From Buttiauxella sp. B2 (GTDB lineage: Bacteria; Pseudomonadota; Gammaproteobacteria; Enterobacterales; Enterobacteriaceae), in contig NZ_VEXQ01000001.1 in NCBI RefSeq assembly GCF_006376615.1, forward strand, positions 248,001 through 312,000: a stretch of 64,000 bases of DNA, in the 5' to 3' direction. Below the pieces are notes generated by a model. It did no database searches. It worked only from the letters and a program-made list of their open reading frames with translations, and was not told the DNA's origin. The position numbers and the translations under genes are program-made. Below are positions 2,456-17,211 of this stretch, in pieces. Each line of letters starts with the position of its first letter. Positions within the stretch are counted from its first letter, which is position 1.

Positions 2456-3658
2456 TTATTTTGCTGCATCTTCCATATTGGCAACGTCGTCTTTTTTTAC
2501 CTGTGGCGCGCCATTCCCCCAGGTTCCACGGACGTAATTCACCACATTAGTCATTTCATCGGCTGACATAATCTCTTTATACGCTGGCATTTTGAAGGAA
2601 ATATTGCCCTGCGTTTGCGGGGTTTCAGCCCCCTGATTAATCACTGAAATCAGCGAGGAAGGATCTTTGGCGGTTACCACTGAATTGTTCGCTAATGAAG
2701 GTACGGTAAAATCTTTTCCTTTGCCGTCATCGCCATGGCAGGTTGAACAATACATCGAATAGAGAATTTTCCCGTCAGTGGGCGAATAAACGATTGAACC
2801 GTCGGTGGCAACTGGCGTTGGGTTCCTATGGTTAAAATTCAGCAGATAATACGAAATAGCGTCCAGATCACTGTCGGTCAAATATTGGGTGCTTTGGGTA
2901 ACAACTTCGCTCATTGGCCCGGATATCGCGCTGTGCTGGCTCCTACCCATACGCAGCAAATCCTTTAATTCTTCTGACGGCATGGTGATATCTCTCAGAG
3001 ATGGCGCATACCAACCATCAATCATCGCACCGCTGAGATACACATCGCTGGACGCGTCATAGCCTTTTTCCTGCATCGTCACGCCTCTTGGCGTATGGCA
3101 GGCACCGCAATGTCCTGGCCCTTCAACCAGATAAGCCCCACGGCTTAGCAATATCGCGTTCTTATCATCGGGCTGAATGGCTTTCGTTTCTGGCTGTGTT
3201 TTATCGACGTATAACCAGTTCCAGACATGTAGCGGCCATCGAGCAGACAGCAGCCAGGGAATGTCATTGTCTTTGTTTTTCACATCGGAAGGCGGCACCT
3301 CCTTCATGAAATAATCATAAAGAGAGTGAATGTCTGCATCGGTCATTTTTGCATAGGAAGGGTACGGCATGGCGGGATACAGAGCATGTCCATCTTTCGC
3401 GATACCCTGCCTTACTGCTTTTTCAAAATCTTCATAACTGTAATTACCGATGCCAGCTGTTTTATCTGGGGTAATGTTGGTGGCATAAATATCCCCAACC
3501 GGTGTGGAAAATTTTTTCCCACCCGCCATGGGTTGTCCGCCCTGCGCCGTGTGGCAAGCCACACAGTCCGAGGCCCTTGCCATATATTCACCAACGGAAG
3601 TCGCTGCTGCATTACCCACGTAAATTAAGCACCCGAGAGCTATTATTATCTGTTTCAT
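2456..3658 (-). CDS. Secreted triheme cytochrome c, partner of the flavoprotein dehydrogenase
   Basis: 400 aa with an N-terminal signal peptide (cleavage near AAAT, residue 20) and three CxxCH haem c sites: CVACH at 32-36, CGACH at 184-188 and CSTCH at 304-308. This three-domain build is that of the cytochrome c subunits of periplasmic alcohol/gluconate dehydrogenases, which take electrons from a dehydrogenase and pass them to ubiquinone or an oxidase. It starts 6 bp after the upstream flavoprotein gene, so the two are almost certainly co-translated; I infer that it is the electron acceptor of that enzyme. No long C-terminal hydrophobic anchor is visible, so it is probably soluble or loosely attached in the periplasm. 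The family is clear; the specific partner is inference from spacing. Confidence 0.88.
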   Translation of the reverse strand: MKQIIIALGCLIYVGNAAATSVGEYMARASDCVACHTAQGGQPMAGGKKFSTPVGDIYATNITPDKTAGIGNYSYEDFEKAVRQGIAKDGHALYPAMPYPSYAKMTDADIHSLYDYFMKEVPPSDVKNKDNDIPWLLSARWPLHVWNWLYVDKTQPETKAIQPDDKNAILLSRGAYLVEGPGHCGACHTPRGVTMQEKGYDASSDVYLSGAMIDGWYAPSLRDITMPSEELKDLLRMGRSQHSAISGPMSEVVTQSTQYLTDSDLDAISYYLLNFNHRNPTPVATDGSIVYSPTDGKILYSMYCSTCHGDDGKGKDFTVPSLANNSVVTAKDPSSLISVINQGAETPQTQGNISFKMPAYKEIMSADEMTNVVNYVRGTWGNGAPQVKKDDVANMEDAAK

Positions 3659-3664
3659 TTCAAG

Positions 3665-5557
3665 TTATCCCATCGCCTTGAGCTCTTTGACCGCTCGCCA
3701 CGCCTGGTCAATCGCAGTATGCGCATAGGCGTCCCAGTCTGAATCAGAATTAGCAATCGCTATGCGTCCAATAGGCTTACGCGCTCGCTCAATAATTTCC
3801 GGTATTTTGTCCATATCATCGAACAACGCGCTGGCATAATACGCATAGCCATGTGCCCAACGGTTGACGGTGATAGCCGTGATATCGCGTTCGTGGTCAA
3901 ACCCAGCTTGCCCCAGCATTTCCTGAAGTTGCGAACGGATCATTTGTTCATGGGTATCAAAAGTGGTGCCCAGTAAATACGCTCGCCCCTGACGGAACTG
4001 CTCACGGGCACTCAGTTTGCTCCCCGGATACGTTGGGACATAAACCATATGCAGGCACATGGGTTCATCCGGATTTTGTGGATGCTGATAGCTCCCAAGA
4101 CTAACCGGATAATCGAGCTTAACGCGGCTATAAGGAGCGGCTGGTGAATAGAATTCGTGAATACCCAGTTGAGTAAATGCGTGCCAGTTTTTCACCACCA
4201 CATTGGTATAAACCAGCGGAGCTTTAACGTTTAAACGCAGGTCAGCTTTTTGTTCCTCCGGCGTTTCAGGCACAAGATATGGGATCATCATGTTGTAACC
4301 CGCCATGATCGCATTTCGGCCTTTCACACGATGCGCTTTACCGTCGTTAACGTAGGTCACTACCACGCCATCATCGGTATTTGCCGCATTGATGACAATA
4401 CTGTTGAGGCGAATACGGGTGGCATTTTCTTTGCGGTCAAGCGTCCGATAGTTAAGTTTTGAAGTGATAGAGTCTTCCATCGTATTTCCAGGCAACGATT
4501 CAGGCACCAGATGGCGGACTATCAGGCGAGCCAGACCGGCGTTACCATCCGGAAAATGGTAAACATAAGGTTCTTCAAGGTCAGCGAGGGCTTCTTCATC
4601 AAGCGGAGGTAATTTCATTGCCTCAAGCCCTGGCAACGCACAAGTTCGGGCATCACTACAGCTCACACCTTCGATACCGATGGCAAAAAAGTCATTGGTA
4701 CGCTGCTGGAAATACATAATGGCCATTTTGCTCAGCCCCACTTTTTCCACCAGAAAATCCCGGTAGCTGTGAGTGTCCATCCACGCAGTTTTTTCGTCCA
4801 CTGACATGCCTTCCAGGTAGTCCACTGGGTTCACGTACAAATCCAGAATCGCTTTGCGGTCGGTTTCGCTTAACGGGAAGTCGTTAATAAAGGCTTCAAG
4901 GCTGCGGCCATTGAGTTTATTCGGTGGAATATCATCGGCAACCGCGCGCCCAGGATCGCCGCCAACAATTTTTGTTTCGCCGAAATTCTTTTTGTCGAAG
5001 AAAACACCGCGGCTTAATTTTAAATCCGGATAGAAATTGACATCAAACCCTTGTTTCATGCGCGCGACGCTGACGCCCACAGTGGACATCAGCCCATTCA
5101 CAACGGGGCTAAAGTTTCGCGTTGGCGACTGAAATGCTTCGCTGCCGCCGTATCCAATAACTTTTTTACCCCCTGCGTTAAATTCATTGCGTTTAGCGTG
5201 GCCGCCAAAATCATCGTGATTATCAAGCACCAGCACTTTGCTGTCTTTGCCTGCGACGTCGCGCCAGAAACTGGCCGCAGCTAATCCGCTAAGCCCACCG
5301 CCGACAATAACCAGATCGTATTCTTCTTCGACAGGAAGATGGTCGGTGCTAAATTTTTCATGATCACGGCCAATAGCGTGTGCCATCTCGAAAGAGCCGG
5401 GATGGTTACCGCGCAGCCCAGTCAATTGGGGTGGATAGTAGTCCTCCCCTATAACCGCACTGGCTTTACCGGCAGCATTGGCAAGGTCGAGAGGTGTCAG
5501 CCCTGCGGCAATAGTAATAGCAACACCGTTGAGAAAATCACGTCGGGTAATGGACAT
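3665..5557 (-). CDS. spdH: Spermidine-dehydrogenase-like FAD flavoprotein, TAT-exported
   Basis: 630 aa. A twin-arginine signal (TRRDFLNG, residues 4-11, followed by a hydrophobic stretch ending near ANA) indicates folding with cofactor before export to the periplasm. An FAD-binding Rossmann motif VGGGLSGLAAA sits at 85-95, with the second ribose-binding strand ending VLVLDNHDDFGGH at 108-120. Overall layout and length resemble the Pseudomonas SpdH and Citrobacter spermidine dehydrogenases, which cleave spermidine to 1,3-diaminopropane and 4-aminobutyraldehyde without making H2O2. The context agrees: an aminobutyraldehyde dehydrogenase, GABA transaminase and succinate-semialdehyde dehydrogenase lie nearby, and a triheme cytochrome c follows 6 bp downstream. 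The substrate is inferred; other polyamines are possible. Confidence 0.78.
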   Translation of the reverse strand: MSITRRDFLNGVAITIAAGLTPLDLANAAGKASAVIGEDYYPPQLTGLRGNHPGSFEMAHAIGRDHEKFSTDHLPVEEEYDLVIVGGGLSGLAAASFWRDVAGKDSKVLVLDNHDDFGGHAKRNEFNAGGKKVIGYGGSEAFQSPTRNFSPVVNGLMSTVGVSVARMKQGFDVNFYPDLKLSRGVFFDKKNFGETKIVGGDPGRAVADDIPPNKLNGRSLEAFINDFPLSETDRKAILDLYVNPVDYLEGMSVDEKTAWMDTHSYRDFLVEKVGLSKMAIMYFQQRTNDFFAIGIEGVSCSDARTCALPGLEAMKLPPLDEEALADLEEPYVYHFPDGNAGLARLIVRHLVPESLPGNTMEDSITSKLNYRTLDRKENATRIRLNSIVINAANTDDGVVVTYVNDGKAHRVKGRNAIMAGYNMMIPYLVPETPEEQKADLRLNVKAPLVYTNVVVKNWHAFTQLGIHEFYSPAAPYSRVKLDYPVSLGSYQHPQNPDEPMCLHMVYVPTYPGSKLSAREQFRQGRAYLLGTTFDTHEQMIRSQLQEMLGQAGFDHERDITAITVNRWAHGYAYYASALFDDMDKIPEIIERARKPIGRIAIANSDSDWDAYAHTAIDQAWRAVKELKAMG

Positions 5558-5570
5558 AAATATCCTAAAT

Positions 5571-5686
5571 AATTCGAGCTATGGGTAGGCGGCCAGGGAG
5601 CTTATCCCCAGGAGCTTACTTTAGTAAGTGACTGGGGTAAGTGAGTGCAGCCAACACCCCCATAACTTGAAGTATGACGGGTATAA
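5571..5686. repeat. ERIC (enterobacterial repetitive intergenic consensus) element
   Basis: The spacer between the SnoaL-like gene and the flavoprotein gene holds the palindromic core typical of ERIC: CCCCAGGAGCTTACT facing AGTAAGTGACTGGGGT, then the characteristic outer arm ending AACTTGAAGTATGACGGG. It sits inside an operon, so it would be transcribed and could form a long stem-loop between cistrons. Confidence 0.85.
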
Positions 5687-5713
5687 AACCTTACTTGTCA
5701 GCCGCTAATACCG

Positions 5714-6190
5714 TTATTTTGCCTGGGCTTTTAGCTCTTCATCGAGCTTCTTAGAGTCATAATAGTCGCCCTGCCAGGTAATTTTCCCTTTATTGACGGT
5801 GATATAACTGACACCTTCAAATTTTATCGGGTTATTTGTTGCCGGACTTCCGCCCCATTCACCGCTATTTTTCCCGGTGAATTCCCAACGAAATGCGATG
5901 GTATCGTGGTCGTATACCGGCTTGCTGGTCATTTTCCAATTCAGATCAGGTACGGCTTTAATAAAGGCACCAATAACCTCTTTTTCCGCATTGCCTTTTC
6001 CTTTTACGGGTGTGCCATTTGCCGCATCGTAATAAACCACATCGTTAGCTAAATATTGCGCGGCTTTTGCAGAATCATGCGCATTCCAGGCAGACATATA
6101 ATCTTTAACCACGGTTAATGGTGAAACATCAGCCAGTGCCAGATTTGAAAATAACGCAAAAGATAAGACAGCGACCTTCATTGCTTTCAT
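5714..6190 (-). CDS. Secreted SnoaL-like / NTF2-fold protein
   Basis: 158 aa: a Sec signal peptide (residues 1-20, ending LALA before DVSP) followed by a single SnoaL/NTF2-like domain (VVKDYMSAWNAHDSAKAAQY, then DTIAFRWEFTGKNSG and ISYITVNKGKI-like strands). SnoaL-fold proteins include polyketide cyclases, ester-cyclase-like proteins and small-ligand binders. It starts 9 bp after the aldehyde dehydrogenase gene and, after an ERIC, is followed by the periplasmic dehydrogenase. A periplasmic role in polyamine or aldehyde handling (for example holding or cyclising the reactive 4-aminobutyraldehyde) is only a guess from position. AAGG before the ATG at 6190 supports the start. Confidence 0.8.
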   Translation of the reverse strand: MKAMKVAVLSFALFSNLALADVSPLTVVKDYMSAWNAHDSAKAAQYLANDVVYYDAANGTPVKGKGNAEKEVIGAFIKAVPDLNWKMTSKPVYDHDTIAFRWEFTGKNSGEWGGSPATNNPIKFEGVSYITVNKGKITWQGDYYDSKKLDEELKAQAK

Positions 6191-6199
6191 TTGATTACC

Positions 6200-7627
6200 T
6201 TATTCAGAGATATCGCACATGATGTGCTTCACACGCGTGTATTCATCCAGTGAGTAGGATGACAAATCTTTGCCGTAACCTGATTTTTTGAAGCCGCCGT
6301 GTGGCATTTCGGCGCACAGTGGAATGTGGTTGTTAATCCAGACCGTACCGAAATCAAGGCGAATGCTAAACCGCTGGGCGCGGCCGTGATTGCTGGTCCA
6401 GACACTGGCGGCAAGCCCATATTCCACATCGTTTGCTTTATCAAGCGCTTCGGCTTCTGAGGAGAATTTCTGCACGGTCATCACCGGGCCAAAGACTTCA
6501 TGCTGAATGGCCTCATCATGTTGCTCAAGCCCTGAAATAATGGTCGGTTCAAAGTAAAAACCTGGGCCTGCACCTGGTTTACCGCCAGTTTCAATTTTAG
6601 CGTGTGCCGGGAGGCGGCTAATAAAACCTTTAACTTGCTCAAGCTGATTACGGCTATTGAGCGCACCGTACAACGCGTCTTTATCATCCGGCGTACCGAA
6701 TTTGATTTCACGGGTTTTGTTAATCAGCTTTTCAAGGAATGACTCGTAGATAGAATCTTCTATCAGGATGCGTGTAGCGGAGGTGCAATCTTGCCCGGCG
6801 TTGAAGAAACCGGCCGTAGTGATGGTATCAACAGCCTTAGAAATATCCGCATCGGCAAAGACAATAACTGGCGCTTTGCCGCCTAATTCAAGGTGTGCTT
6901 TCGTTAAATTTGCCGCAGCGCAAGCCGCAACCTGAAGCCCTGCACGAACCGAACCCGTTATGGATACCAGCGAAGCTTCAGGGCTGGAAACCACCAGCGA
7001 GCCGGTTTCGGCTTTACCCAACAGCACATTAAACGCGCCCTGTGGGAAAATGGGTGCCGCGAGTTCTGCCAGAATCAACGTGCTGATTGGTGTGGTATCA
7101 CTCGGCTTGAGCACTACCGTATTCCCCGCGGCCAGTGCGGGTGCAATTTTCCACACGGCCATCATGAAGGGGTAATTCCACGGTGTAACCTGACCGACAA
7201 TGCCGAGAGGTTCGCGGCGGATGGTGGATGTCAGCCCGGCTGAGTATTCATACGATGCTTTACCTTCCAGACAACGTGCGGCACCGGCAAAGAAACGAAG
7301 TGCGTCGCAAGACGCCGCGATCTCTTCCTTTTCAATAAAATGGCGCAACTGCCCTGTTTCCTGGCTTTGCGCCTGGGCCAACCTGTCGATATTGCGTTCG
7401 ATTTCATCTGCCAGTTTTAACAAAGCGAGCTGTCTTTGCGCTGGCGTAGAATGTTTCCAGACAGAAAAAGCGCTTTTAGCTGCACTATAAGCCTGGTCGA
7501 CTTCAGCACGACCCGCACTCGGAGACAGCGCATAAGTTTCGCCATTGACCGGGCTTACCAGTTCAAAGAGATTTTCTTCAGAACCTGACACGTACTGCCC
7601 ATTGATAAAATGCTTAAGTACTTTCAT
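6200..7627 (-). CDS. Gamma-aminobutyraldehyde dehydrogenase (PatD-like ALDH)
   Basis: 475 aa NAD-dependent aldehyde dehydrogenase. From the ATG at 7627 the catalytic residues are Asn151 (PWNYP), Glu247 (LELGG) and Cys281 (GQDCTSATR). The sequence resembles E. coli PatD/YdcW (474 aa), which oxidises 4-aminobutyraldehyde to GABA; RFFAGAARCL is shared. A start at 7651 would add eight residues, but GGAGAG seven bases before 7627 and the family N-terminus (KHFINGQYV) favour 7627. It leads a minus-strand unit with the SnoaL gene, spermidine dehydrogenase and cytochrome genes. A large AT-rich palindrome lies just upstream and the FCD-type regulator is divergent. Confidence 0.9.
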   Translation of the reverse strand: MKVLKHFINGQYVSGSEENLFELVSPVNGETYALSPSAGRAEVDQAYSAAKSAFSVWKHSTPAQRQLALLKLADEIERNIDRLAQAQSQETGQLRHFIEKEEIAASCDALRFFAGAARCLEGKASYEYSAGLTSTIRREPLGIVGQVTPWNYPFMMAVWKIAPALAAGNTVVLKPSDTTPISTLILAELAAPIFPQGAFNVLLGKAETGSLVVSSPEASLVSITGSVRAGLQVAACAAANLTKAHLELGGKAPVIVFADADISKAVDTITTAGFFNAGQDCTSATRILIEDSIYESFLEKLINKTREIKFGTPDDKDALYGALNSRNQLEQVKGFISRLPAHAKIETGGKPGAGPGFYFEPTIISGLEQHDEAIQHEVFGPVMTVQKFSSEAEALDKANDVEYGLAASVWTSNHGRAQRFSIRLDFGTVWINNHIPLCAEMPHGGFKKSGYGKDLSSYSLDEYTRVKHIMCDISE

Positions 7628-7643
7628 TCTGCTCTCCACTGGT

Positions 7644-7676
7644 TTAAACATATATTATATTATGTAATATGTTTAA
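7644..7676. promoter_or_regulatory. AT-rich palindromic operator upstream of the aldehyde dehydrogenase operon
   Basis: A 33-bp near-palindrome with perfect 10-bp arms (TTAAACATAT and ATATGTTTAA) around an AT-rich centre. It lies 17 bp upstream of the dehydrogenase start at 7627 and in front of the divergent GntR/FCD regulator. The right half shares TAATATGTT with the palindrome before the permease gene. Probable operator of the adjacent FCD regulator; this is inferred. Confidence 0.6.
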
Positions 7677-7893
7677 CGACGGTTAATTTCAATAACATTA
7701 TGCTAACAATATGATATACATCCCATTTCGAAGTGATTATTTGCGGTGCAATGTCGCCGCGGAAAACACGCTGTGTAGACGGTTCAGCCGAATGAAGCAC
7801 AGTGACACGAACACTTAAGGCTTCCTTCATTAACAAGGGGTTGTATGCTATGTTCAGTCGTTCAGATTAAGGATTGCTTCATCAAGGAAAACT

Positions 7894-8619
7894 ATGATTA
7901 CTCATGCGGTGATATTCGCGCCTATCGGTCAGGCTAGCCGTTCCGATCAAATTGTTCAGCGACTCTCGAATGCCATTATTACCGGGCTACTTGAAGCGAA
8001 TGAGCAGTTACCTAATGAAGCCGACCTTGCAAAAATGATGGGTGTTTCGCACATCACCATCAGGGAAGCGCTGAATACCCTTCGCGCCAATAATTTAATA
8101 CACACCGTGCGCGGACGTAATGGCGGCAGTTTTGTCTGTGAGCAAGTATGGGAATTCAGTAATACCCTTAATCCATTTAAGACATTAAGTACCGATTATT
8201 TGTCCGACCTGGGTGAAATGCATTGCGCTATTATTAGCCACAGCGCAAGACTTGCTTCACGAAGAATGACCAATGCGGATATTACCCGCTTGCGTGAATT
8301 CGTTGAGGTGCTTAATTCAGCCTGTTCGCCGGAAGCAAGAACTCAAGCGGATATGCGTTGTTTGTTAGCGCTGGCAGCGTGTTCCCAGTCAGCTCGTCTC
8401 GCGAACCAGGAACTGATTTTACAGTCCGAATGGTCGTCACTGGTTGCTATTCTCTTTCGTTCGGAAAATATACACCGCGAGATTGTTAATCTGTACACCA
8501 CATTAATTGACGCACTGGTCTCACACAACGAATCGGAGTCAGTTAACACGGCCAAAAGTTTAATCGACACATTTACTTTCTATCTGATAGAAAATAAATT
8601 GAAGTACAATGCAAAATAA
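7894..8619 (+). CDS. GntR-family (FCD/FadR-like) transcriptional regulator
   Basis: 241 aa. The N-terminal winged helix-turn-helix is typical of GntR (LSNAIITGLLEANEQLPNEADLA, then VSHITIREALNTLRANNLIHTVRGRNGG, about residues 22-85). The C-terminal all-helical FCD domain (about 100-235) is recognisable but its usual metal site looks degraded: the D..H/H..H pattern is not kept in DMRCLLALAACSQ, and I see no clear final histidine. AAGGAAAACT precedes the ATG. It is divergent from the aminobutyraldehyde dehydrogenase operon and co-directional with the Cache-domain gene 14 bp downstream. It likely controls the polyamine/GABA genes. Ligand unknown. Confidence 0.88.
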   Translation: MITHAVIFAPIGQASRSDQIVQRLSNAIITGLLEANEQLPNEADLAKMMGVSHITIREALNTLRANNLIHTVRGRNGGSFVCEQVWEFSNTLNPFKTLSTDYLSDLGEMHCAIISHSARLASRRMTNADITRLREFVEVLNSACSPEARTQADMRCLLALAACSQSARLANQELILQSEWSSLVAILFRSENIHREIVNLYTTLIDALVSHNESESVNTAKSLIDTFTFYLIENKLKYNAK

Positions 8620-8633
8620 CAATAGGCATAAAT

Positions 8634-9326
8634 ATGCTATTAACAACATCACTCCGTACCCTAAGCGAAAAAATTGATAGCATCATTAACTCCACCATTG
8701 ACTCCACCGGAATGTTGGCAAGGGATATTGAATCTTCTCTGGCTGAAATTAAGGATGTTAATCTGGAACATCTTCTTGAACCCGCCGTCAAAAAAACGAT
8801 TCAGGACAACATTAAAGCCACATTGAACAGCAATGTGTATTGTTCAGGTGCGGGTTTCGCCAGCCATATAGAAAGCAGCGCCAGCAATAAAGAATTCTGG
8901 CTACTTGAATGGTGGTATAAAAAAGCCGACGGTGTAAAGCAAGTGAATCTTGATTTAGACCAGGCAACACAACAACGCCTTGATTTCAGAACCTTTGAAT
9001 GGTTCAAACAAGCACCCGACGTGGGTAATGCCTTTATTCATGGGCCTTATGTCGATTATATCTGCAACACATCTTATACCCTCACCTCAGCGGTCCCCGT
9101 CTATTTCAATGAACAGTTTTTAGGGGTTGCTGCAATAGATATTCTGGTAAGCCGTGTTGAGGATGAATTATTGCCCTACGCAGCAAATGATAAAGTCATT
9201 CTTACCAATAAAGATGCGAGAATTGTTTTTTCTACCCATCCGAGATTTCGGGTCGGTGATTTGCTTGATACTAAAATAGCTACTCTCGTTTACGAAAATG
9301 ATTACTTCAACCTTTATCAATCCTGA
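8634..9326 (+). CDS. Stand-alone soluble Cache (PDC-type) sensor-domain protein
   Basis: 230 aa that read as one dCache/PDC-type ligand-binding domain with no signal peptide, no transmembrane helix and no output domain. Visible Cache landmarks are the long N-terminal helix, FRTFEWFKQA (R-x-x-x-W-F), GPYVDYICNTSYTLTSAVPV and the strand GVAAIDILV with its aspartate. The R/W/Y/D set is reminiscent of amino-acid- and amine-binding dCache motifs, but I have not aligned it. Cache domains are normally extracellular parts of receptors, so a free cytoplasmic one paired with a GntR regulator (14-bp gap) is unusual. It may be a cytoplasmic sensor for a polyamine or GABA that works with the regulator; that role is inference. 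Confidence 0.72.
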   Translation: MLLTTSLRTLSEKIDSIINSTIDSTGMLARDIESSLAEIKDVNLEHLLEPAVKKTIQDNIKATLNSNVYCSGAGFASHIESSASNKEFWLLEWWYKKADGVKQVNLDLDQATQQRLDFRTFEWFKQAPDVGNAFIHGPYVDYICNTSYTLTSAVPVYFNEQFLGVAAIDILVSRVEDELLPYAANDKVILTNKDARIVFSTHPRFRVGDLLDTKIATLVYENDYFNLYQS

Positions 9327-9334
9327 TAATTTGA

Positions 9335-9370
9335 GCAGTAGTGGATTAGCGAAAGCGAATCCACCACTGC
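9335..9370. terminator. Hairpin between convergent Cache and permease genes
   Basis: A 13-bp stem with one mismatch (GCAGTAGTGGATT paired with AATCCACCACTGC) and a 10-base loop lies in the 94-bp gap between converging genes. There is no clean U-tract on either strand, so termination efficiency is uncertain. Confidence 0.55.
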
Positions 9371-9420
9371 ATCGACTTCGTCTGTCAGAGTAGCTTTAGC
9401 GACATCCGACATTTTTTTCC

Positions 9421-10902
9421 CTAGCTATTTTGTTGAGCAGCCAGCTTTTGCGCATACTCGATGGCATCATTTTCAGGTGCGTTAGAGCGGCCAAACGGTT
9501 TAGTAATCAACATATAAAGCAACCCAGAACCGATAACAATCGCCAGACCCACCAGCACTGTCCAGCGATCAGCAAAGCTCGCACCTTCTGCCGGCTGTGC
9601 CAGTAACCAAATACCGCACAGACCGTAAGCCAGCGCCAGAATGTTCACGATGAAACCCCATGAACCCACGGTCCATTCACCTGCTGGTTTCCAGCCTTTC
9701 AAACGCTGGCGCAATGCTGCCAGTACCACCATCTGGAAGGAAATATAGATTCCGATAACCGCAAAAGCCGTGATACGTGCCAGACTATCCGGTTGGAAAT
9801 ATACCCAGACACAAATGATCACTGGCAGTAAACAGCTCACCATCATGGCATTATCAGGCACGCTATTTTTCGATATTTTGGACATCCAGTCACTGCCCGG
9901 CAACATATTGTCACGGGAGAAGGAAAATATCAGACGGCTCAGTGCAGCTTGTAGTGAGAGAATACAAGACAGCATGGCAATAACTGCAACAACGATGAAA
10001 ACTGTAGCTCCCGTTTCGCCCAACGCCTGGTTCAGAATCATCGGGATTGGGTCAGCAATTTTACCGTTGACGATATTCATCAAATCCGGTGAAGACAACA
10101 GATAACCCATAATCGAAATTACGGCAGAGATTGCACCGAATACGATGCTTAATATCATGGCTACGGGAATTTTCTTACCTGGATTTTTAACTTCTTCCGC
10201 CACATTACCGCAGGCCTCAAAGCCAAAGAACATAAATAAGCCCATCAGCGATGCAGACATAAATGCTGTGGTGTAATTCCCGTCTTTCGCAAGCACCCCC
10301 ATCGAGTCAAAAACGACAGAGAAAGGCTGTGAACGATGGAATATTAACAGGTAGATACCCAATGCAATCACGCTGACTATTTCACACCAGAAGCCAATTT
10401 TCGCAACGCGCGCCAGGTTTTTTGTACCTGACATATTCACGCCCATCATGATTAACAACAGCACGACAGATGTTGTCATCATATTCCCCGCGCTCGTTGC
10501 GTAGTGGAACAAGGATGCGACGAACGTAGAGGTGTATTCCGCGATAGAAGTGATGGTGACGACTAAAGCCCAAAGATAAATCCAGGCGGCTATCCAGGCA
10601 TATTTCTTTCCCCACAATCTTCTTGCCCAAGGGTATAAGCCCCCGGTAATCGGATATTGTGACGCGACTTCACCGAATACCAACGCCACCAGCAGCTGGC
10701 CACAGGCAACGATCAGTATCCACCAAATTGCCGGTGGCCCCGCAAGCGTTACCGCCAGTGCAAAGAGTGAATAAACGGCAGTCAGGGGTGAAAGGTATGT
10801 AAATCCCAGCGCGAAGTTAGACATCAGCCCTATCGAGCGATTGAATTGCTCACCTTTAACTGGCTGATGTTGATGGTGTTCTTTGTCTATCGTCTGTTCC
10901 AT
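9421..10902 (-). CDS. APC-family amino acid/GABA/polyamine-type permease
   Basis: 493 aa integral membrane protein with about 12 hydrophobic segments, from SIGLMSNFALGFTYLSPL to the C-terminal pair near 440-475. The motif ITGGLYPWARRLWG after the second segment is the amine/GABA/choline branch of the APC superfamily. No exact orthologue is named. It sits between the aldehyde dehydrogenase and transaminase units and has the same AT-rich palindrome in its promoter as the dehydrogenase operon, so import of GABA, 4-aminobutyraldehyde or a polyamine breakdown product is the likely job. A polyamine substrate such as putrescine cannot be excluded. GAGAAAAGAT precedes the ATG. Confidence 0.85.
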   Translation of the reverse strand: MEQTIDKEHHQHQPVKGEQFNRSIGLMSNFALGFTYLSPLTAVYSLFALAVTLAGPPAIWWILIVACGQLLVALVFGEVASQYPITGGLYPWARRLWGKKYAWIAAWIYLWALVVTITSIAEYTSTFVASLFHYATSAGNMMTTSVVLLLIMMGVNMSGTKNLARVAKIGFWCEIVSVIALGIYLLIFHRSQPFSVVFDSMGVLAKDGNYTTAFMSASLMGLFMFFGFEACGNVAEEVKNPGKKIPVAMILSIVFGAISAVISIMGYLLSSPDLMNIVNGKIADPIPMILNQALGETGATVFIVVAVIAMLSCILSLQAALSRLIFSFSRDNMLPGSDWMSKISKNSVPDNAMMVSCLLPVIICVWVYFQPDSLARITAFAVIGIYISFQMVVLAALRQRLKGWKPAGEWTVGSWGFIVNILALAYGLCGIWLLAQPAEGASFADRWTVLVGLAIVIGSGLLYMLITKPFGRSNAPENDAIEYAQKLAAQQNS

Positions 10903-10952
10903 ATCTTTTCTCTTTATGTGGCATAAGGGCAGGCAGTGTTTGTATTTTATAA

Positions 10953-10965
10953 AACATAATATGTT
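10953..10965. promoter_or_regulatory. Palindromic operator before the permease gene
   Basis: AACATA-A-TATGTT is a perfect 13-bp palindrome about 50 bp upstream of the permease start, followed by a further TATATGTATA. It shares TAATATGTT with the larger palindrome at 7644-7676. Both may bind the FCD regulator encoded at 7894. Confidence 0.55.
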
Positions 10966-11088
10966 ATATGTATATGCTTAATGTCACATAATTGTTAAAG
11001 ACACTCACAAGTGATTAACGTAGTGCAGTGAGCGCAGAAGTGCCCTCTTTTGGTGCTTCACGATTGAATGAATCGAGGGAATAAATGC

Positions 11089-11122
11089 AAAAAAAACCGG
11101 CGACAAGAACTGTCGCCGGTTG
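11089..11122 (-). terminator. Rho-independent terminator of the puuE-gabD unit
   Basis: On the minus strand a 10-bp GC-rich stem (ACCGGCGACA with TGTCGCCGGT, 5-base loop) is followed by eight T residues, 18 bp after the gabD stop. This is a textbook intrinsic terminator that closes the transaminase/dehydrogenase operon ahead of the permease promoter. Confidence 0.92.
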
Positions 11123-11139
11123 ACTTATGTGGACGGGTA

Positions 11140-12591
11140 TTACAATGCAACGCAGACGTACTTCATCTCCAGATACTCATCTATCCCGAAGCGGGAGCCT
11201 TCACGGCCCAGACCGGATTGTTTGATGCCGCCAAATGGAGCGACTTCATTGGAAATCAGCCCAGTATTTACACCTACCATGCCGTATTCCAGCGCCTCTG
11301 GAATTTGCCATTGCCGTTTTGCATCTCTGGTGAAGATATAGGCGGCGAGACCAAACTCGGTATCATTGGCGAAATTAACGACCTGGTCATCGGTATCAAA
11401 TTTAAATAATGCCGCGACTGGCCCAAACGTTTCTTCTCTGGCAAAACGCATCTCTTGAGTCACATTTGCAACGACCGTAGGCGCGAAGTAATTCCCACCT
11501 ATTGAATGCTTGTGCCCGCCAGTTAATAACGTGGCTCCCTTCGACAGCGCATCACTAATATGAAGCTCAACCTTTTCAATTGCCTTTGCATTAATCAACG
11601 GCCCCTGAGTCACCCCGTCGTCCATTCCATTTCCGACTTTCAAGGCCTCGACCGCCTTCACCAGTTCTTCACAAAGTTTCTGATAAATGCCGCTCTGAAC
11701 GTAAACCCGGTTAGCGCAAACGCATGTCTGTCCGCTGTTACGGAATTTGGAGGCCATAATACCTTTTACGGCCAGCTCAAGACTGGCGTCATCAAAGACA
11801 ATTACAGGCGCGTTCCCCCCCAGTTCAAGCGACAGTTTCTTGATAGTCGGTGCGCACTGTGCCATGAGTAAACGCCCGGTTTGAGTTGAACCCGTAAAAC
11901 TGAGTTTTCGCACAGCAGGATTGCGGCAAAGTTCCCCGCCAATTTCTTTGGCATCACCCGTGATAACCTGCAATATGCCTTTGGGTAAACCAGCCATTTC
12001 GGCAAGCTTAGCCAATGCCAGCGCGGTCAGTGGTGTTTGCTCAGCGGGTTTGACGATAATCGCACAGCCTGCTGCCAGAGCGGGTGCGACCTTACGGGTT
12101 ATCATCGCCGCGGGAAAATTCCACGGTGTAATTGCCGCACAGACACCAACCGGTTGTTTGGTGACAATAAATCGCTGGTCAGGATTGGTGGGTTGCAGCA
12201 ACACGCCATCCACCCTTTTTGCCTCTTCCGCAAACCAGGTAATAAACGATGCGGCATAGGTAACTTCACCTCGAGCCTCCGCAAGCGGTTTGCCCCCTTC
12301 AAGGGTAATCAACCGAGCAAGATCTTCGCTGTTGTCATTAATCAAGCTAACCCAGCGATGCAAGATTTTGGCACGGTTTGCCGCAGTCTGCTTTTTCCAC
12401 TCTTTTTGCGCAATTTCAGCAGCAATAATGGTGCGCTGGGTTTCCGCCTGCCCCATCAAAGGGACGACGGCGATGTCCTCCCCAGTCGCCGCATTCAGTA
12501 CCGACATTTTTTTACCCGAAAGGGCGTTGCTCCACTCGCCATCGATCAGACAGGTCTCGAGCAACAGTTCAGGGTTGTTCATGTTCATCAT
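11140..12591 (-). CDS. gabD: Succinate-semialdehyde dehydrogenase (GabD-like)
   Basis: NAD(P)-dependent aldehyde dehydrogenase that oxidises succinate semialdehyde to succinate, the last step of GABA breakdown. Typical motifs in order: ITPWNFPAAMITRK (catalytic Asn), LSFTGSTQTGR (cofactor loop), LSLELGGNAPVIVFDDA (catalytic Glu), FRNSGQTCVCANRVYV (catalytic Cys with the second Cys characteristic of GabD), EEVAPFGG-type end with FGGIKQSGLGREG. Length about 483 aa, against 482 in E. coli GabD. Candidate starts are GTG at 12603 (overlapping the puuE stop as ATGTGA) and ATGs at 12591, 12588 and 12582; I use 12591, preceded by GAGA. Translation is probably coupled to puuE. It is as similar to E. 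coli GabD as a paralogue could be, so another gabD elsewhere is possible. Confidence 0.92.
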   Translation of the reverse strand: MMNMNNPELLLETCLIDGEWSNALSGKKMSVLNAATGEDIAVVPLMGQAETQRTIIAAEIAQKEWKKQTAANRAKILHRWVSLINDNSEDLARLITLEGGKPLAEARGEVTYAASFITWFAEEAKRVDGVLLQPTNPDQRFIVTKQPVGVCAAITPWNFPAAMITRKVAPALAAGCAIIVKPAEQTPLTALALAKLAEMAGLPKGILQVITGDAKEIGGELCRNPAVRKLSFTGSTQTGRLLMAQCAPTIKKLSLELGGNAPVIVFDDASLELAVKGIMASKFRNSGQTCVCANRVYVQSGIYQKLCEELVKAVEALKVGNGMDDGVTQGPLINAKAIEKVELHISDALSKGATLLTGGHKHSIGGNYFAPTVVANVTQEMRFAREETFGPVAALFKFDTDDQVVNFANDTEFGLAAYIFTRDAKRQWQIPEALEYGMVGVNTGLISNEVAPFGGIKQSGLGREGSRFGIDEYLEMKYVCVAL

Positions 12592-12599
12592 CTGGGTTC

Positions 12600-13865
12600 T
12601 CACATTTGTGTCGCGTTTTTGATGATATCCAGAGCTTTGTCGAACTGAGCGTCAGGGATAGTGAGCGGATAGAGGAAACGAATCACGTTACCATTCTGGC
12701 CGCAGGTCAGCAGCAGCAAGCCTTGCTCCAAAGCACGTTTCTGAACCTGCTGCGCGACAGCCGCAGAAGGCTCACCCGTTGATGTGTCGTAAAACTCGGC
12801 GGCAACCATTGAACCCAACCCACGAATTTCTACCAATGCAGGGCACGTTGCGGTGATTTCACGCAACCGCGAAGTCAGGCGCTCACCCAGAGTTTGCGCT
12901 CGCAAGCACAGTTTTTCGTCTTCAATAACATCCAGCACAGCGTGTGCGGAAGCTACGGCTAATGGGTTTCCGGCATAGGTTCCACCCAATCCGCCCGGCG
13001 CGGGTGCATCCATTATTTCTGCTTTACCAACTACACCAGACAATGGCATACCGCCCGCCAGGCTTTTCGCCATCGTCATCAGGTCAGGCTGATGGGTGTA
13101 ATGATTCATCGCGAACATTTTGCCCGTACGAGCAAAACCACTTTGCACTTCATCGGCAATCATCACGATGCCATGAGTGTTACAAATCTGGCGAATAGCC
13201 GCGACAAACTCAGGGGGGGCCACATTAAAACCGCCCTCGCCCTGTACAGGTTCAAAAATGATTGCCGCAACTTGAGTCGCTTCGATATCGGACTTAAACA
13301 AACGCTCAATTGCTTTTACGGCGTCATCGGTCGAAATACCGCTGAGTTCGGACGGATATGGCGCATGGAAAACGGAGCCCGGGAATGGCCCAAAACCAAT
13401 TTTATAAGGAGCCACTTTGCCGGTTAGGGCCATGGTCATATATGTGCGGCCATGGAACCCACCGCTAAAGGCAATCACGCCAGGGCGACCAGTATGAGCG
13501 CGGGCGATTTTCACCGCATTCTCAACGGCTTCTGCTCCGGTGGTGAAAAATGCCGTTTTCTTTGGCCCAACGATTGGTGCGGCGGCATTAATTTTTTCCG
13601 CCAGCGACACGTAACTTTCGTAAGGAACAATTTGATAAGCGGTATGAGTAAAGGCGTTCAGTTGCTGTTCGATGGCCTGCACCAGACGTGGGTGGCGGTG
13701 GCCCGTATTCAGCACGGCAATTCCGGCGGCAAAATCGATATATTGCTTCCCTTCAACATCAGTAATGGTGCTGTTTTCAGCCGATTGGGCAAAAAAATTA
13801 CACATTACACCGACTCCACGAGGAGTAGCTTCCAGACGACGTTGATGGAGTTCGTTATTACTCAT
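12600..13865 (-). CDS. puuE: 4-aminobutyrate transaminase (PuuE-type)
   Basis: 421 aa PLP-dependent class III aminotransferase converting GABA and 2-oxoglutarate to succinate semialdehyde and glutamate. It matches E. coli PuuE in length (421) and in its N-terminus (MSNNE-HQRR-ATPRGVGVMCN), more than GabT. Motifs: TTGAEAVENAVKIAR (PLP phosphate), SGGFHGRT, FEPVQGEGG, IADEVQSGFARTG (Asp to pyridine N) and MAKSLAGGMPL with the Schiff-base Lys. First gene of the minus-strand puuE-gabD unit. A MocR-type regulator is divergent 109 bp away, and a direct repeat in that gap is a likely operator. Confidence 0.94.
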   Translation of the reverse strand: MSNNELHQRRLEATPRGVGVMCNFFAQSAENSTITDVEGKQYIDFAAGIAVLNTGHRHPRLVQAIEQQLNAFTHTAYQIVPYESYVSLAEKINAAAPIVGPKKTAFFTTGAEAVENAVKIARAHTGRPGVIAFSGGFHGRTYMTMALTGKVAPYKIGFGPFPGSVFHAPYPSELSGISTDDAVKAIERLFKSDIEATQVAAIIFEPVQGEGGFNVAPPEFVAAIRQICNTHGIVMIADEVQSGFARTGKMFAMNHYTHQPDLMTMAKSLAGGMPLSGVVGKAEIMDAPAPGGLGGTYAGNPLAVASAHAVLDVIEDEKLCLRAQTLGERLTSRLREITATCPALVEIRGLGSMVAAEFYDTSTGEPSAAVAQQVQKRALEQGLLLLTCGQNGNVIRFLYPLTIPDAQFDKALDIIKNATQM

Positions 13866-13894
13866 TTTTTATCCCTCATACGAAAAACAAATTT

Positions 13895-13933
13895 ACTGGT
13901 TGATAGTCAGGATTCATTTAGACAGTATCTGGT
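13895..13933. promoter_or_regulatory. GabR-like direct-repeat operator between puuE and its regulator
   Basis: Two direct copies of (A/T)CTGGT, at 13895-13900 and 13928-13933, are 33 bp apart, about three helical turns. MocR/GabR regulators bind direct repeats at such spacing (GabR of Bacillus uses a similar arrangement). They lie in the gap between puuE and the divergent MocR gene. Assignment is inferred. Confidence 0.5.
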
Positions 13934-13974
13934 ACCTTAATCGAGAGCCAAATCGTTTTAATAATAGGATCCAA

Positions 13975-15471
13975 ATGCGTTCACTTGCCGTAGATGTGAT
14001 CAAGCAGGCATTTAGCCAAACGCCTGAAGAGAAGCTTCATAAGAAACTTTATGTTGCGATATGCAATTGTATTCTTGAGGGAAGTTTGCGTCCTGCCGCG
14101 CGCTTGCCGCCTTCCCGAGATTTGGCAACTGAGCTTACGCTGTCACGCAATACGGTACTGCGAGTCTACGAACAGTTGCAGGCCGAAGGATATATCTCGA
14201 CGCGCACCAGTAGCGGCACCTTTGTCACCGAGAGTGTTCTGGATAACCTCAACACGCTGGTCGCCAGAACTGAACACACTTCTCAGCCCGAAGACCGTTC
14301 AAGTCTCTCTGACCGCTGCCTCGAACTTTTAGAAAATGCCAGTGCCAGCCCTGCTCAATGGGGGGATTTTATTCCCGGTGTGCCCGACGTAAACAGTTTC
14401 CCTCACCAGGCGTTTACAAAAATCTACGACCGCATTGCCAGACGTCCTGCTCCTGAATATCTGACTTACGATGCCGATGGTGGGCTGGAAGTTTTAAAAT
14501 CCGCATTGTCAGATTATTTGCGCACCGCTCGCGGCGTAAAATGTTCAACCGACCAGATATTAATTACCGAAGGGATCCACCAGGCACTGGATTTAGTCAC
14601 CCGCACGTTATGCAATCCTGGTGACCATGCCTGGATTGAAGAACCTGGTTATTGGGGGATTAAAAATATACTGCGCATGAACGCCGTGCATATTTCAGCC
14701 CTTACAGTTGATGACCAGGGACTGGTACCCCACACATCACCAGAAGAAAAACCAAAGTTAATTTTCGTTACTCCATCACACCAATATCCGCTGGGTTCAG
14801 TGATGAGTCTCCCTCGCCGCCAATTATTGCTATCGCAGGCACGGGAATTTCAAAGCTGGATTATTGAGGATGATTACGATAGCGAATTTCGTTTTTCCGG
14901 CCAGCCTATTCCTTCGCTACAAGGCCTGGAAGAAGACAGCCCAGTTATCTATATCGGTACATTCAGTAAAACGCTCTATCCCGCGCTGCGTCTGGGTTAC
15001 GTTGTGTTACCCCCTCCTTTAGCCGCGCCGCTTAAAAAGGTCCATAACGAACTCTATCGCAGTGGGCACCAGGTTATTCAAGCTGCCTTAGCTGAATTCA
15101 TCAAAGAAGGTTATTACGCCGCGCATATTCGCAAAATGCGCCAACTTTATAACAAACGCCGCAGCCAATTGGTTGAACTGATTAAACAGCATTTAGGTGA
15201 AGAATATCTCGGTTATTACAATAGCAATGCTGGACTACACCTAATTATTCAACTGCCATCGGAAGCAGACGATATCAGTATTTCCAAACAGGCCAATTCT
15301 GAAGGGATTTTGGTCAGGCCGTTGTCGCGTTATTACCTTAATGACCAGAAGTTGAAAGGATTATTAGTTGGGTTCGCCAGTATCAAAGACCATGATATGG
15401 TTCCTTCTTTTATGCGACTGGCGGGCATCATCAAACAAAAGCGCAATAGCGGGAATGATAACAGCCCATAG
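13975..15471 (+). CDS. MocR/GabR-type regulator (GntR HTH fused to aminotransferase)
   Basis: 498 aa from the ATG at 13975, preceded by AGGAT; a reading from 13900 would add 25 residues without a ribosome site. The N-terminal GntR winged helix (KLYVAICNCILEGSLRPAARLPPSRDLA, then LSRNTVLRVYEQLQAEGYI) is followed by a fold-type-I aminotransferase domain (about 120-490) with the PLP lysine in GTFSKTLYPALRLGY and the upstream IIEDDYDSEFRF. Members such as GabR use PLP plus GABA as effector and activate GABA-catabolic genes. Its position divergent to puuE-gabD makes control of that operon the natural reading. Not recognised as a named E. coli orthologue. Confidence 0.92.
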   Translation: MRSLAVDVIKQAFSQTPEEKLHKKLYVAICNCILEGSLRPAARLPPSRDLATELTLSRNTVLRVYEQLQAEGYISTRTSSGTFVTESVLDNLNTLVARTEHTSQPEDRSSLSDRCLELLENASASPAQWGDFIPGVPDVNSFPHQAFTKIYDRIARRPAPEYLTYDADGGLEVLKSALSDYLRTARGVKCSTDQILITEGIHQALDLVTRTLCNPGDHAWIEEPGYWGIKNILRMNAVHISALTVDDQGLVPHTSPEEKPKLIFVTPSHQYPLGSVMSLPRRQLLLSQAREFQSWIIEDDYDSEFRFSGQPIPSLQGLEEDSPVIYIGTFSKTLYPALRLGYVVLPPPLAAPLKKVHNELYRSGHQVIQAALAEFIKEGYYAAHIRKMRQLYNKRRSQLVELIKQHLGEEYLGYYNSNAGLHLIIQLPSEADDISISKQANSEGILVRPLSRYYLNDQKLKGLLVGFASIKDHDMVPSFMRLAGIIKQKRNSGNDNSP

Positions 15472-15521: not shown

Positions 15522-16937
15522 TTAAATTTCTTTGAGCTTAGCTGTAAAGTGACGCAATACTTTTGGTTCATATATGAAACTTAATCCCTTAATATTGTTT
15601 GCATTCTCTTTTACATGACTGAACGCTTCAATAATAAAGTCCATGTGAGATTGGGTATACGTTGCACGGGGAATGGTTAAACGGAGCAATTCTGCAGGGC
15701 AAGGTAATTGCTCACCGGTTTTAGGGTCTCTACCCAGCAAAAATGAACCTATTTCGACAGCCCTAATACCGGCAACCTTATATAATTCGCAAGCAAGCGC
15801 CTGAGCTGGAAATTGTTCGGCAGGAATATGCGGCAGCAACTTACCTGCATCGACAAAAGCGGCATGGCCACCTGCCTGCTGGCACGTCACTCCGATGGCC
15901 TCAAGACCGTCAACCAGATATTGAATCTGCGCAATACGATAGGCCAGCCAGTCTTGATTCATACCGTCACAGAGCCCTACGGCAAGACGTTCCATTGCCC
16001 CGCCCTCTAAGCCGCCATAGGTTGGAAAACCCTCCTGTACAACACAAAGTGTTCTGCACTCGGTATAAACATCAAAATAACTGTCATCTTTGATGCACAG
16101 TAATCCCCCCATTGGCACCATTGCGTCTTTTTTCGCTGACATCGCTAACATATCAGCATATTTATAGGTTTCCTGGGTGATTTTTTCTATGCTCCAGTCT
16201 TTATATCCAGCTTCCCTTTGCTGAATAAAATACGCATTTTCGGCAAAGCGCGCTGAGTCCATCACGACTGGAATGTCATATCTTTTAGCAATGTGATACA
16301 TCGCTTTCAGGTTTGCCATTGAAACTGGCTGCCCCCCAGCAGAATTACAGGTGATGGTAGCAACAATATATGGAACATTATTGGCTCCGACCTCCTGAAT
16401 ACCTTGCTCTAACCCTTCCAGATCGAAATCACCTTTAAAGTCATAGCGAATTGATGTATCAAACGCCTCTTTGACATAGATATTACGGACAGTACAGCCA
16501 TTTATCTGACTATGTCCCTGGGTGGTATCAAAGAAATAGTTCGAGAACGCAACCATTTTGACACGGTCCAGACCTTTTTCCTGTACGCGTTTTTTAATTA
16601 ATACAGGAATATAAATTTGTTCTGCACCACGCCCCTGGTGAGTGGGGATAGTGTGCTGGTAGCCAAAAATATTCTTAACTGCATCAGCTAGTGCATAATA
16701 ACTTCGACTTCCACTGTATGCTTCATCGCCACGCATCATTGCAGCTTGCATATTCTGAGTAATGGCACCCGTACCGCTGTCAGTTAGCAAATCAATAAAT
16801 ACATCTTCGCTGTCCAGCAAAAATGGATTCATACCTGATTTGATGATCGCATTTTCACGATGCTCACGTGTAGTACGTTTTACAGGTTCAATTACACGAA
16901 TGCGGAATGGCTCAGGCAAATGTTTGAAGTTATTCAT
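15522..16937 (-). CDS. tnaA: Tryptophanase TnaA
   Basis: Cleaves L-tryptophan to indole, pyruvate and ammonia (PLP enzyme, cytoplasm). 471 aa from the ATG at 16937, the E. coli TnaA length; the N-terminus [20 protein letters not shown] and C-terminus [11 protein letters not shown] match the family. The PLP-binding lysine lies in [17 protein letters not shown] longer reading from 16979 would add 14 residues not found in the family. It resembles tryptophanase far more than the related tyrosine phenol-lyase. A tnaC leader and CRP site precede it. The tnaB permease that normally follows is absent: the next gene converges on tnaA after 50 bp. Confidence 0.97.
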
Positions 16938-17211
16938 GGTGAAGCCCTTATTCATATTTATATATAGCAGTGCCCACAATTATTCATTTGTTGTGAATAA
17001 CTGTTATAAGCTATGTGCATCCCTTAATGGCATTATGCCGCGCAGGTGTTAACAGAGTCCCACCACAACCCGCTTCATGATAAATAATGGGCATGGGAAA
17101 ACTCAGGCGTGAAAGCTGCGCCAATCGGACATAATTATTGGGGATATGCGAAACAAAACAGATGAGGAGTCATCTGCGCTTGCTTATCTCGCATTAATTG
17201 GGAGGAAGGTT
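16938..17211 (-). promoter_or_regulatory. tnaC-tnaA spacer (Rho-dependent attenuation region)
   Basis: The 274-bp transcribed spacer between the tnaC stop and the tnaA start corresponds to the region of E. coli where Rho loads and terminates unless a tryptophan-stalled ribosome blocks it. I see no intrinsic terminator in it. A small inverted repeat (TTATTCA with TGAATAA) lies at about 16980-17000. The mechanism is known for E. coli and inferred here. Confidence 0.65.

Follow-up and report, generated by a model that had tools for sequence, protein, structure and literature searches.

A predicted spermidine dehydrogenase with a triheme cytochrome partner and a GntR-Cache regulator pair in Buttiauxella sp. 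B2

The stretch of DNA analysed here, 64,000 nucleotides of the Buttiauxella sp. B2 genome (hereafter the window), carries a group of predicted polyamine catabolism genes near its start (Table 1). At their centre is spdH, the gene for a predicted spermidine dehydrogenase, which is followed by the gene for a triheme cytochrome c. The products of these two genes probably form a periplasmic spermidine:quinone oxidoreductase of two subunits, which would feed a PatD, PuuE and GabD route and stand under the control of a GntR repressor relieved by a Cache-domain protein. SpdH would be exported folded through the twin-arginine translocation (TAT) system and would oxidise spermidine at its flavin, with the electrons passing over a surface heme b of SpdH to the triheme cytochrome. 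The cytochrome would reduce ubiquinone, like the related subunit of acetic-acid-bacterial dehydrogenases, and the quinol would be reoxidised by cytochrome bo3. The C4 product (4-aminobutyraldehyde/1-pyrroline) would be taken up, possibly by way of the APC permease, which would be regulated together with the operon, and then be converted by the PatD-like enzyme to 4-aminobutyrate (GABA), which PuuE and GabD, encoded in a separately controlled unit, would carry on to succinate. GntR would repress the patD-snoaL-spdH-cytochrome operon and the permease gene at a promoter palindrome until the neighbouring Cache protein binds an amine in the cytoplasm and, through contact with GntR, relieves the repression.

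Judged by its homology, the window flavoprotein is a spermidine dehydrogenase of the known kind, and spermidine activity is predicted for it. It matches the SpdH of Pseudomonas aeruginosa (7d9f) over its full length (residues 1-626, E = 3.8e-232), with 55% identity in the alignment. Identity is 61-63% to proteins of the genus Serratia and 77-79% to those of Citrobacter, and the nearest named loci are those of B. massiliensis (92%), B. brennerae (91%) and B. warmboldiae (88%). The N-terminus, MSITRRDFLNG, contains an RRxF sequence that we take to be a TAT-type signal, and with this signal TAT export, as the sequence-only reading of the stretch had assumed, is probable. Residues His60 and His569 correspond to His54 and His562 of the P. 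aeruginosa enzyme and are histidines in 12 of 12 aligned sequences. According to PMC12564564, P. aeruginosa SpdH contains flavin adenine dinucleotide (FAD) and a surface heme b with these two ligands, the heme b of the SpdH family being the first acceptor of the FAD electrons. The same source states that the enzymes of P. aeruginosa and of Serratia form 1,3-diaminopropane and pyrroline, their acceptor in vitro being ferricyanide, cytochrome c or 2,6-dichlorophenolindophenol. A tree of 82 SpdH sequences, made by a quick method that leaves many forks open, groups the window protein with Citrobacter and, further out, Serratia, with P. aeruginosa SpdH in a neighbouring group.

The full-length match and the conserved heme-b histidines bear out the identity that the sequence-only reading had given to the enzyme, and the tree does not place it among enzymes known for another substrate. 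The accompanying premise that enteric bacteria break down polyamines only inside the cell, however, overlooks the spermidine dehydrogenases cited for Serratia marcescens and, in membrane-bound form, for Citrobacter freundii (PMC12564564, PMC7576179). Already known or proposed are thus a periplasmic SpdH, argued for P. aeruginosa from its TAT signal (PMC11107197), enterobacterial SpdHs in Serratia and Citrobacter, and some cytochrome c link, which judging by PMC6472588 was likely reported earlier. As a separate observation, plasmids of Duffyella gerundensis (NZ_CP073263, NZ_LN907828 and NZ_CP072599; 571-581 kb) carry a homologue of spdH, 76% identical, whose annotation says no more than NAD(P)-binding protein.

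In the literature searched no gene is named as taking the electrons of spermidine dehydrogenase, and the triheme subunit is a direct candidate. Its gene begins 6 bp after spdH, and its product belongs to the family of triheme subunits of alcohol and fructose dehydrogenases (8gy2_B, 7w2j_C), the best solved relative being 8gy2_B, the cytochrome c subunit of a quinone-type alcohol dehydrogenase (E = 2.1e-95). In the host's family, SpdH was detected at E ≤ 1e-60 in 52 of 392 genomes; a sample drawn from the whole class gave SpdH in 2 of 369 genomes, the host being one of the two. These whole-genome searches scored a limited number of first-look candidates, and absences in them are no proof. All 52 family neighbourhoods were examined, and in every one spdH is followed, in the same orientation, by the triheme cytochrome gene. 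The reverse search, with the cytochrome, matched 140 of the 392 genomes at E ≤ 1e-30. Its best 52 places (48-100% identity, E ≤ 2.6e-123) fall in exactly the 52 genomes with spdH, and the place ranked next (E = 2.8e-116) lies in a genome without it. On this distribution the triheme cytochrome is the predicted dedicated partner of SpdH, which lends support to the cytochrome-linked first step of the earlier reading. The remaining matches are taken for other triheme cytochromes, of which one, in the host genome, was inspected. It is encoded at G000:C2:52799-53872 (L131 4761-6002), beside RR-signal proteins of 184 and 933 amino acids, in an operon that by eye resembles that of a molybdenum-type aldehyde dehydrogenase.

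The named SpdH loci are the best 80 of at least 592 confirmed matches. The cytochrome lies 3' of spdH in 34 of these 80 and is absent from 46, among them three (L093, L095, L103) in which the sequence past spdH is shorter than 1 kb or barely longer; the notion of a cytochrome beside every SpdH was accordingly rejected. All 25 Enterobacterales loci have it (L033-L043, L045, L047-L058, L060); outside this order it occurs in Commensalibacter (3 of 3), Aeromonas (2 of 3), one Neisseriaceae locus, Chromobacterium, Marinobacter and 1 of 22 Pseudomonas loci. In the SpdH tree, a single group (support 94, some of its forks left open) unites the 35 cytochrome-linked sequences with six others, and P. aeruginosa SpdH stands in a separate group of 23 that lack the cytochrome. 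Four changes of cytochrome presence are needed on the tree, which is compatible with one origin and later losses. Distances between SpdHs and between cytochromes correlate over the 35 pairs with r = 0.915, a value as high as this being obtained in none of 1000 permutations; since such a correlation also arises from shared descent alone, it speaks for joint inheritance and not for contact. We found no paper that names the triheme partner gene of SpdH, with reports in Tabor 1970, Hisano 1992, Dasu 2006 and Che 2021 being possible. As far as our literature searches reach, and the original Serratia and Citrobacter enzyme papers aside, the identity of this partner is undescribed.

Quinone is the most likely acceptor to be predicted for the pair, because neither a cytochrome c1 nor a second heme-copper oxidase was found in the host and because related triheme subunits, known from acetic acid bacteria, take part in the reduction of ubiquinone (PMC9171043). 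The only COX1-family match (PF00115) in the host genome is CyoB of the ubiquinol oxidase, so that this search found no second heme-copper oxidase, and PF02167, which matched Caulobacter among 14 control genomes, found no cytochrome c1. A cytochrome c oxidase or bc1 complex as acceptor was rejected on these two results; cydAB and other acceptors were not searched. Cytochrome c assembly proteins are present in the host, which has three of the Cytochrom_C_asm family.

Genes for the steps from aldehyde through GABA to succinate, which had also been noted earlier, are present as judged by family models. The PatD-like protein scores above the cut-off of NF010000 (646 versus 615) and below that of the aminobutyraldehyde dehydrogenase equivalog TIGR03374 (516.6 versus 909.3); by eye, its probable true start is an ATG behind GGAGAG. 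The PuuE-type protein lies above NF007308 (844 versus 747), and the GabD-like protein above the succinate-semialdehyde dehydrogenase subfamily TIGR01780 (703 versus 646) and below the equivalog NF008415 (713 versus 828). The APC protein exceeds the Pfam permease cut-offs and no NCBIfam cut-off, and a homologue of it adjoins spdH in five Pseudomonas loci. The host genome encodes a second PatD-like protein (G000:C1:79764-81164, L132), 48% identical to that of the window, whose gene closes a series of genes resembling an ABC transporter; the series is that of L132.

The patD-snoaL-spdH-cytochrome operon and the permease gene appear to have in common a conserved palindrome at their promoters, which puuE-gabD lacks. 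The sequence ATATTATGTAATAT lies upstream of patD, and the permease gene is preceded by two matches that overlap each other and have two mismatches. At up to two mismatches these are its only places in the window, with four strand matches against 0.48 expected and none of 100 shuffles reaching this number. At nearly the same position, the patD site is seen with 0-3 mismatches in the window and in all of the 13 other loci with adjacent spdH (L033-L041, L192, L193, L200, L201), and the permease site with 2-3 mismatches in the window and the 12 of those loci that include the permease. The motif is perfect at patD in L187, although spdH is not adjacent there. Both candidate operators overlap -10-like hexamers, as a repressor site would. 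Operators upstream of spdH, snoaL, puuE or mocR were considered and rejected, the best matches there having 4-6 mismatches and no consistent place.

Several observations weigh against the reading of the locus as a GntR-controlled spermidine:quinone oxidoreductase. The substrate specificity is inferred from characterised relatives and not from these very sequences, and the true substrate might be another polyamine (spermine, norspermidine or thermospermine), or the system might serve detoxification or the remodelling of polyamines at the cell surface instead of feeding. Spermine, too, is accepted by P. aeruginosa SpdH, and a part in remodelling has been proposed for a periplasmic SpdH (PMC11107197); however, the PatD-like enzyme in the operon and the permease with the same motif tie the system to the catabolism of a C4 aldehyde, which arises from spermidine (PMC9397018), and we regard such a change of substrate or role as unlikely. 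The second point is that 21 of the 22 named Pseudomonas loci, and the tree group of P. aeruginosa SpdH, have no adjoining cytochrome, so that SpdH can work without it. SpdH might then be soluble and deliver its electrons to any periplasmic carrier, with the triheme protein mainly serving another route or only boosting turnover, an idea that also draws on the use of artificial acceptors or cytochrome c by purified SpdH enzymes (PMC12564564) and on the absence of the cytochrome from 6 of the 41 members of the cytochrome group in the tree. Set against the 52 of 52 pairing with its exact reverse match in 392 genomes, and against a host in which neither cytochrome c1 nor a second heme-copper oxidase was found, this explanation is quite improbable. 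Thirdly, the window cytochrome has no hydrophobic C-terminal segment, which bears on membrane anchoring and leaves its access to quinone unproven; among the cytochrome C-termini compared by eye, only that of the Neisseriaceae copy (L062) appears hydrophobic. Finally, the patD sites of L035 and L193, which have spdH, show three mismatches, a level that 7 and 8 of 100 shuffles, respectively, attain as well. At patD in L186, L188, L189, L194, L195 and L197, which have no adjacent spdH, there is no clear site, the matches there having 3-5 mismatches, reached by 5-67 of 100 shuffles. A promoter scan gave 8 sites, fewer than the 14.1 in shuffles; taken with the overlap of the -10-like hexamers, this makes the -10 assignment weak, and the likeness of the sites may in part be one of promoter consensus.

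The proposed control of the spermidine:quinone oxidoreductase involves the GntR regulator and a Cache-domain gene that begins 14 bp after it and encodes 230 amino acids. The Cache protein scores 30.2 with PF22673, above the cut-off of 27, and 25.7 with PF02743 (dCache_1), below the cut-off of 45, and has no segment of the membrane-anchor type, the highest 19-residue mean hydropathy being 1.33. Inspection covered 24 loci, namely the window, nine named loci (L033-L041) and 14 loci from 13 genomes (L186-L197, L200, L201). In all 24 the Cache gene lies directly downstream of the GntR gene on the same strand; apart from L035 (274 bp) and L195 (98 bp), the distance is 33 bp or less. The Cache protein was found by its profile in 35 of the 392 genomes, 22 with spdH and 13 without; a part of the 35 was inspected, and one of them (G233) has a partial match only, inside a longer frame. 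Matches of the profile to dCache receptor domains are weak (4xmq, E = 0.0005; 6d8v, presumably McpX, 0.003; PctC, 0.03; PctA, 0.14). When placed by alignment to 6d8v and PctA, Trp123-Phe124 and Asp169 correspond to the aromatic pair and the aspartate common to amine and amino-acid motifs (F188/Y189 and D235 of PctD). These residues are invariant in 16 of 16 divergent members, as are W89 and W93, whose position relative to Trp155 of PctD the alignments do not show.

In the DgoR regulator of Escherichia coli, Asp146, His150 and His195 bind a metal that is needed for its ligand (PMC7674646). When the window GntR protein is aligned to DgoR (7c7e), Asp153 is kept, and Leu157 and Tyr201 take the places of the two histidines; the first of these is leucine in 14 of 14 aligned sequences, and the other is tyrosine in 12, tryptophan in one and phenylalanine in one. 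With two of its three ligands lost, the metal site of the DgoR type is missing, and this loss together with the adjoining Cache partner suggests that sensing has moved from GntR to its neighbour. We tentatively propose for enterobacteria a split regulator, in which a GntR protein with a decayed FCD pocket would work with a separate, soluble Cache protein to control an exchangeable amine-oxidation module entered by SpdH-cytochrome or by a DAO flavoprotein. The Cache protein would have its origin in the extracellular domain of a receptor, would sense an amine in the cytoplasm and would pass the signal on to its DNA-binding partner. It is quite possible, however, that the Cache protein is not the sensor of GntR and has an unrelated role, or that an amino acid, for instance GABA, is what it senses. 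It shows the positions of the amine motif only in part, and the Arg/Asp pair (Arg103-Asp133 of PctD) could not be located in it; its best match to a dCache structure is as weak as stated above; the GntR-Cache pair also stands beside other enzymes (L196); and FadR itself lacks a metal site (PMC7674646), so that loss of the FCD ligands alone is no proof that sensing was lost. An amino-acid sensor is disfavoured by Phe121, which appears to occupy the place of the arginine of the amino-acid motif.

For the combination of a Cache domain, GntR, intracellular location and a stand-alone protein, PMC10104139 was the only paper found. It describes a stand-alone intracellular dCache amine domain that is encoded with a transcription factor in Actinobacteria and is rare, with GntR listed in a figure legend. 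GntR-Cache control is undescribed as far as our searches reach, and a pair beside a known amine pathway offers a likely ligand class and a candidate regulon for these rare intracellular Cache sensors.

A comparison of the 24 loci suggests that the entry oxidase is interchangeable, either SpdH with its triheme cytochrome or a DAO flavoprotein. SpdH-cytochrome is adjacent in 14 loci, the window included, and a DAO-family FAD oxidoreductase takes the place of spdH in five (L186, L189, L194, L195, L197). The five DAO proteins are one family, 51-87% identical, with an RR motif at the start in L194 and L195. In L187 and L188 the row is SnoaL-PatD-GntR-Cache-APC, with spdH-cytochrome at a separate place of the genome concerned (L198, L199). 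L190 and L191 keep GntR, Cache and APC and have no adjoining PatD or oxidase, and L196, the second GntR-Cache pair of genome G370, has other transporters and a different DAO protein as neighbours. In 21 of the 24 loci the GntR-Cache pair comes with a PatD-like gene, and it is the oxidase that varies; the proposed sensor should therefore read a common amine or C4 product, and not spermidine alone.

The SnoaL protein, which the sequence-only reading had named together with SpdH and the cytochrome, is optional and accessory. It exceeds both Pfam SnoaL cut-offs, has a signal-like N-terminus by eye, and its predicted model (mean predicted local distance difference test score 87.3) has the fold of SnoaL, ketosteroid isomerase and limonene epoxide hydrolase. 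At E ≤ 1e-15 it was found in 21 of the 392 genomes, 19 with spdH and two without; in 15 of the 19 the genes are adjacent, and in four (G154, G298, G310, G370) SnoaL is encoded elsewhere in the genome. SnoaL as a core subunit was rejected, since 19 of the 52 spdH-positive genomes have it, two have it without spdH, and it is absent from L192, L193 and L011, in which a PatD-like gene accompanies spdH. SnoaL also occurs with PatD in the absence of spdH, and three Pseudomonas loci (L076, L079, L082), with two different gene orders, again have it next to spdH, so that a link between SnoaL and spdH does exist. Asp55 is invariant in 11 of 11 aligned sequences. In the match to the steroid isomerase 3ov4, profile positions 25-70 correspond to chain positions 8-53, which by the end points alone would place Asp55 at position 38, presumably the general base of that enzyme. 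In L194 (6437-7207) and L195 (6098-6886), both from genomes without spdH, SnoaL_2 proteins of about 260 amino acids with two matched stretches and no obvious signal are encoded next to PatD-like and GntR-Cache genes. The repeat between snoaL and spdH has 42 matches in the host genome, itself included; its insertion varies within the genus, because the corresponding gap in B. massiliensis (L033) is only 12 bp.

Table 1. Positions of the genes and candidate sites of the locus in the window.
Feature	Position	Strand	Remarks
Triheme cytochrome c, predicted dedicated partner of SpdH	2456..3658	-	3 CXXCH; signal-like N-terminus; no hydrophobic C-terminal segment
Predicted spermidine dehydrogenase SpdH (FAD + heme b type)	3665..5557	-	TAT-like signal; 630 aa
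Dispersed repeat, ~125 bp	5565..5690		inside operon, between snoaL and spdH
SnoaL/ketosteroid-isomerase-fold protein, accessory	5714..6190	-	putatively secreted (signal judged by eye)
PatD-like 4-aminobutyraldehyde dehydrogenase (predicted)	6200..7651	-	start probably 7627
Candidate operator ATATTATGTAATAT	7657..7670		upstream of patD; overlaps -10-like hexamer
GntR/FCD regulator	7894..8619	+	DgoR metal ligands His150, His195 are Leu157, Tyr201 here
Stand-alone Cache-domain protein	8634..9326	+	proposed ligand sensor of GntR regulator; no clear transmembrane segment
APC-superfamily permease	9421..10902	-	probable importer of oxidation product or polyamine
Second candidate operator	10949..10969		upstream of permease; 2 mismatches
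GabD-like succinate-semialdehyde dehydrogenase	11140..12603	-	GTG start; separate gab unit
PuuE-type 4-aminobutyrate transaminase	12600..13865	-	4 bp overlap with gabD
MocR/PdxR-type regulator adjoining puuE	13900..15471	+	start codon uncertain; NF052282 421 versus 320

All genes named in the sequence-only reading are present as open reading frames at the positions it gave, and its inventory missed the Cache-domain gene of the GntR-Cache pair, the pair being the most unusual feature of the locus. The MocR/PdxR-type regulator stays below the cut-off of the GabR model (312 versus 600). The flanks are a MelR gene at 1461-2450 (NF007693, 574 versus 253) and a tryptophanase gene at 15522-16979 (TIGR02617, 974 versus 826). 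A chance arrangement of the locus is excluded, because it is conserved across genomes. The description as a complete island is too strong, since the gab part is a separate unit; the 13 kb contain at least two regulatory units, as the puuE promoter lacks the shared site and the arrangement differs in four Citrobacter loci (L036-L039), where puuE is located at the opposite side, beyond the cytochrome gene, and no close gabD is found within the available stretch. The earlier interpretation is partly supported: the SpdH identity, the probable TAT export, the cytochrome link and the C4 genes stand, the intracellular-only premise is weaker, and the completeness of the island is overstated.

In its full-length homology, TAT-like signal and heme-b histidines, the window enzyme resembles the SpdHs of P. 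aeruginosa, S. marcescens and C. freundii (EC 1.5.99.6), and it differs from the P. aeruginosa group in the adjoining cytochrome. The gluconate, fructose and alcohol dehydrogenases of acetic acid bacteria likewise join an exported catalytic subunit to a triheme c subunit of the same family, with ubiquinone as their acceptor; in contrast to these, the catalytic subunit here is a flavoprotein of the SpdH type that has a heme b itself, a small third subunit could not be recognised among the genes, and the cytochrome lacks a hydrophobic C-terminus. The regulator pair recalls the dCache_1AM units of Actinobacteria (PMC10104139), in which two genes encode a regulator and a soluble Cache domain, a likeness of arrangement; here the pair is enterobacterial and lies beside polyamine catabolism genes, the FCD metal ligands are lost and the amine motif is present only in part. 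The PatD-like, PuuE and GabD-like steps are those of the Puu and PatA/PatD putrescine pathways of E. coli, whereas the entry reaction here would cleave its substrate by oxidation and is probably periplasmic, the locus has no gene for glutamylation, and the PatD-like protein is a paralogue of the other PatD-like protein of the genome.

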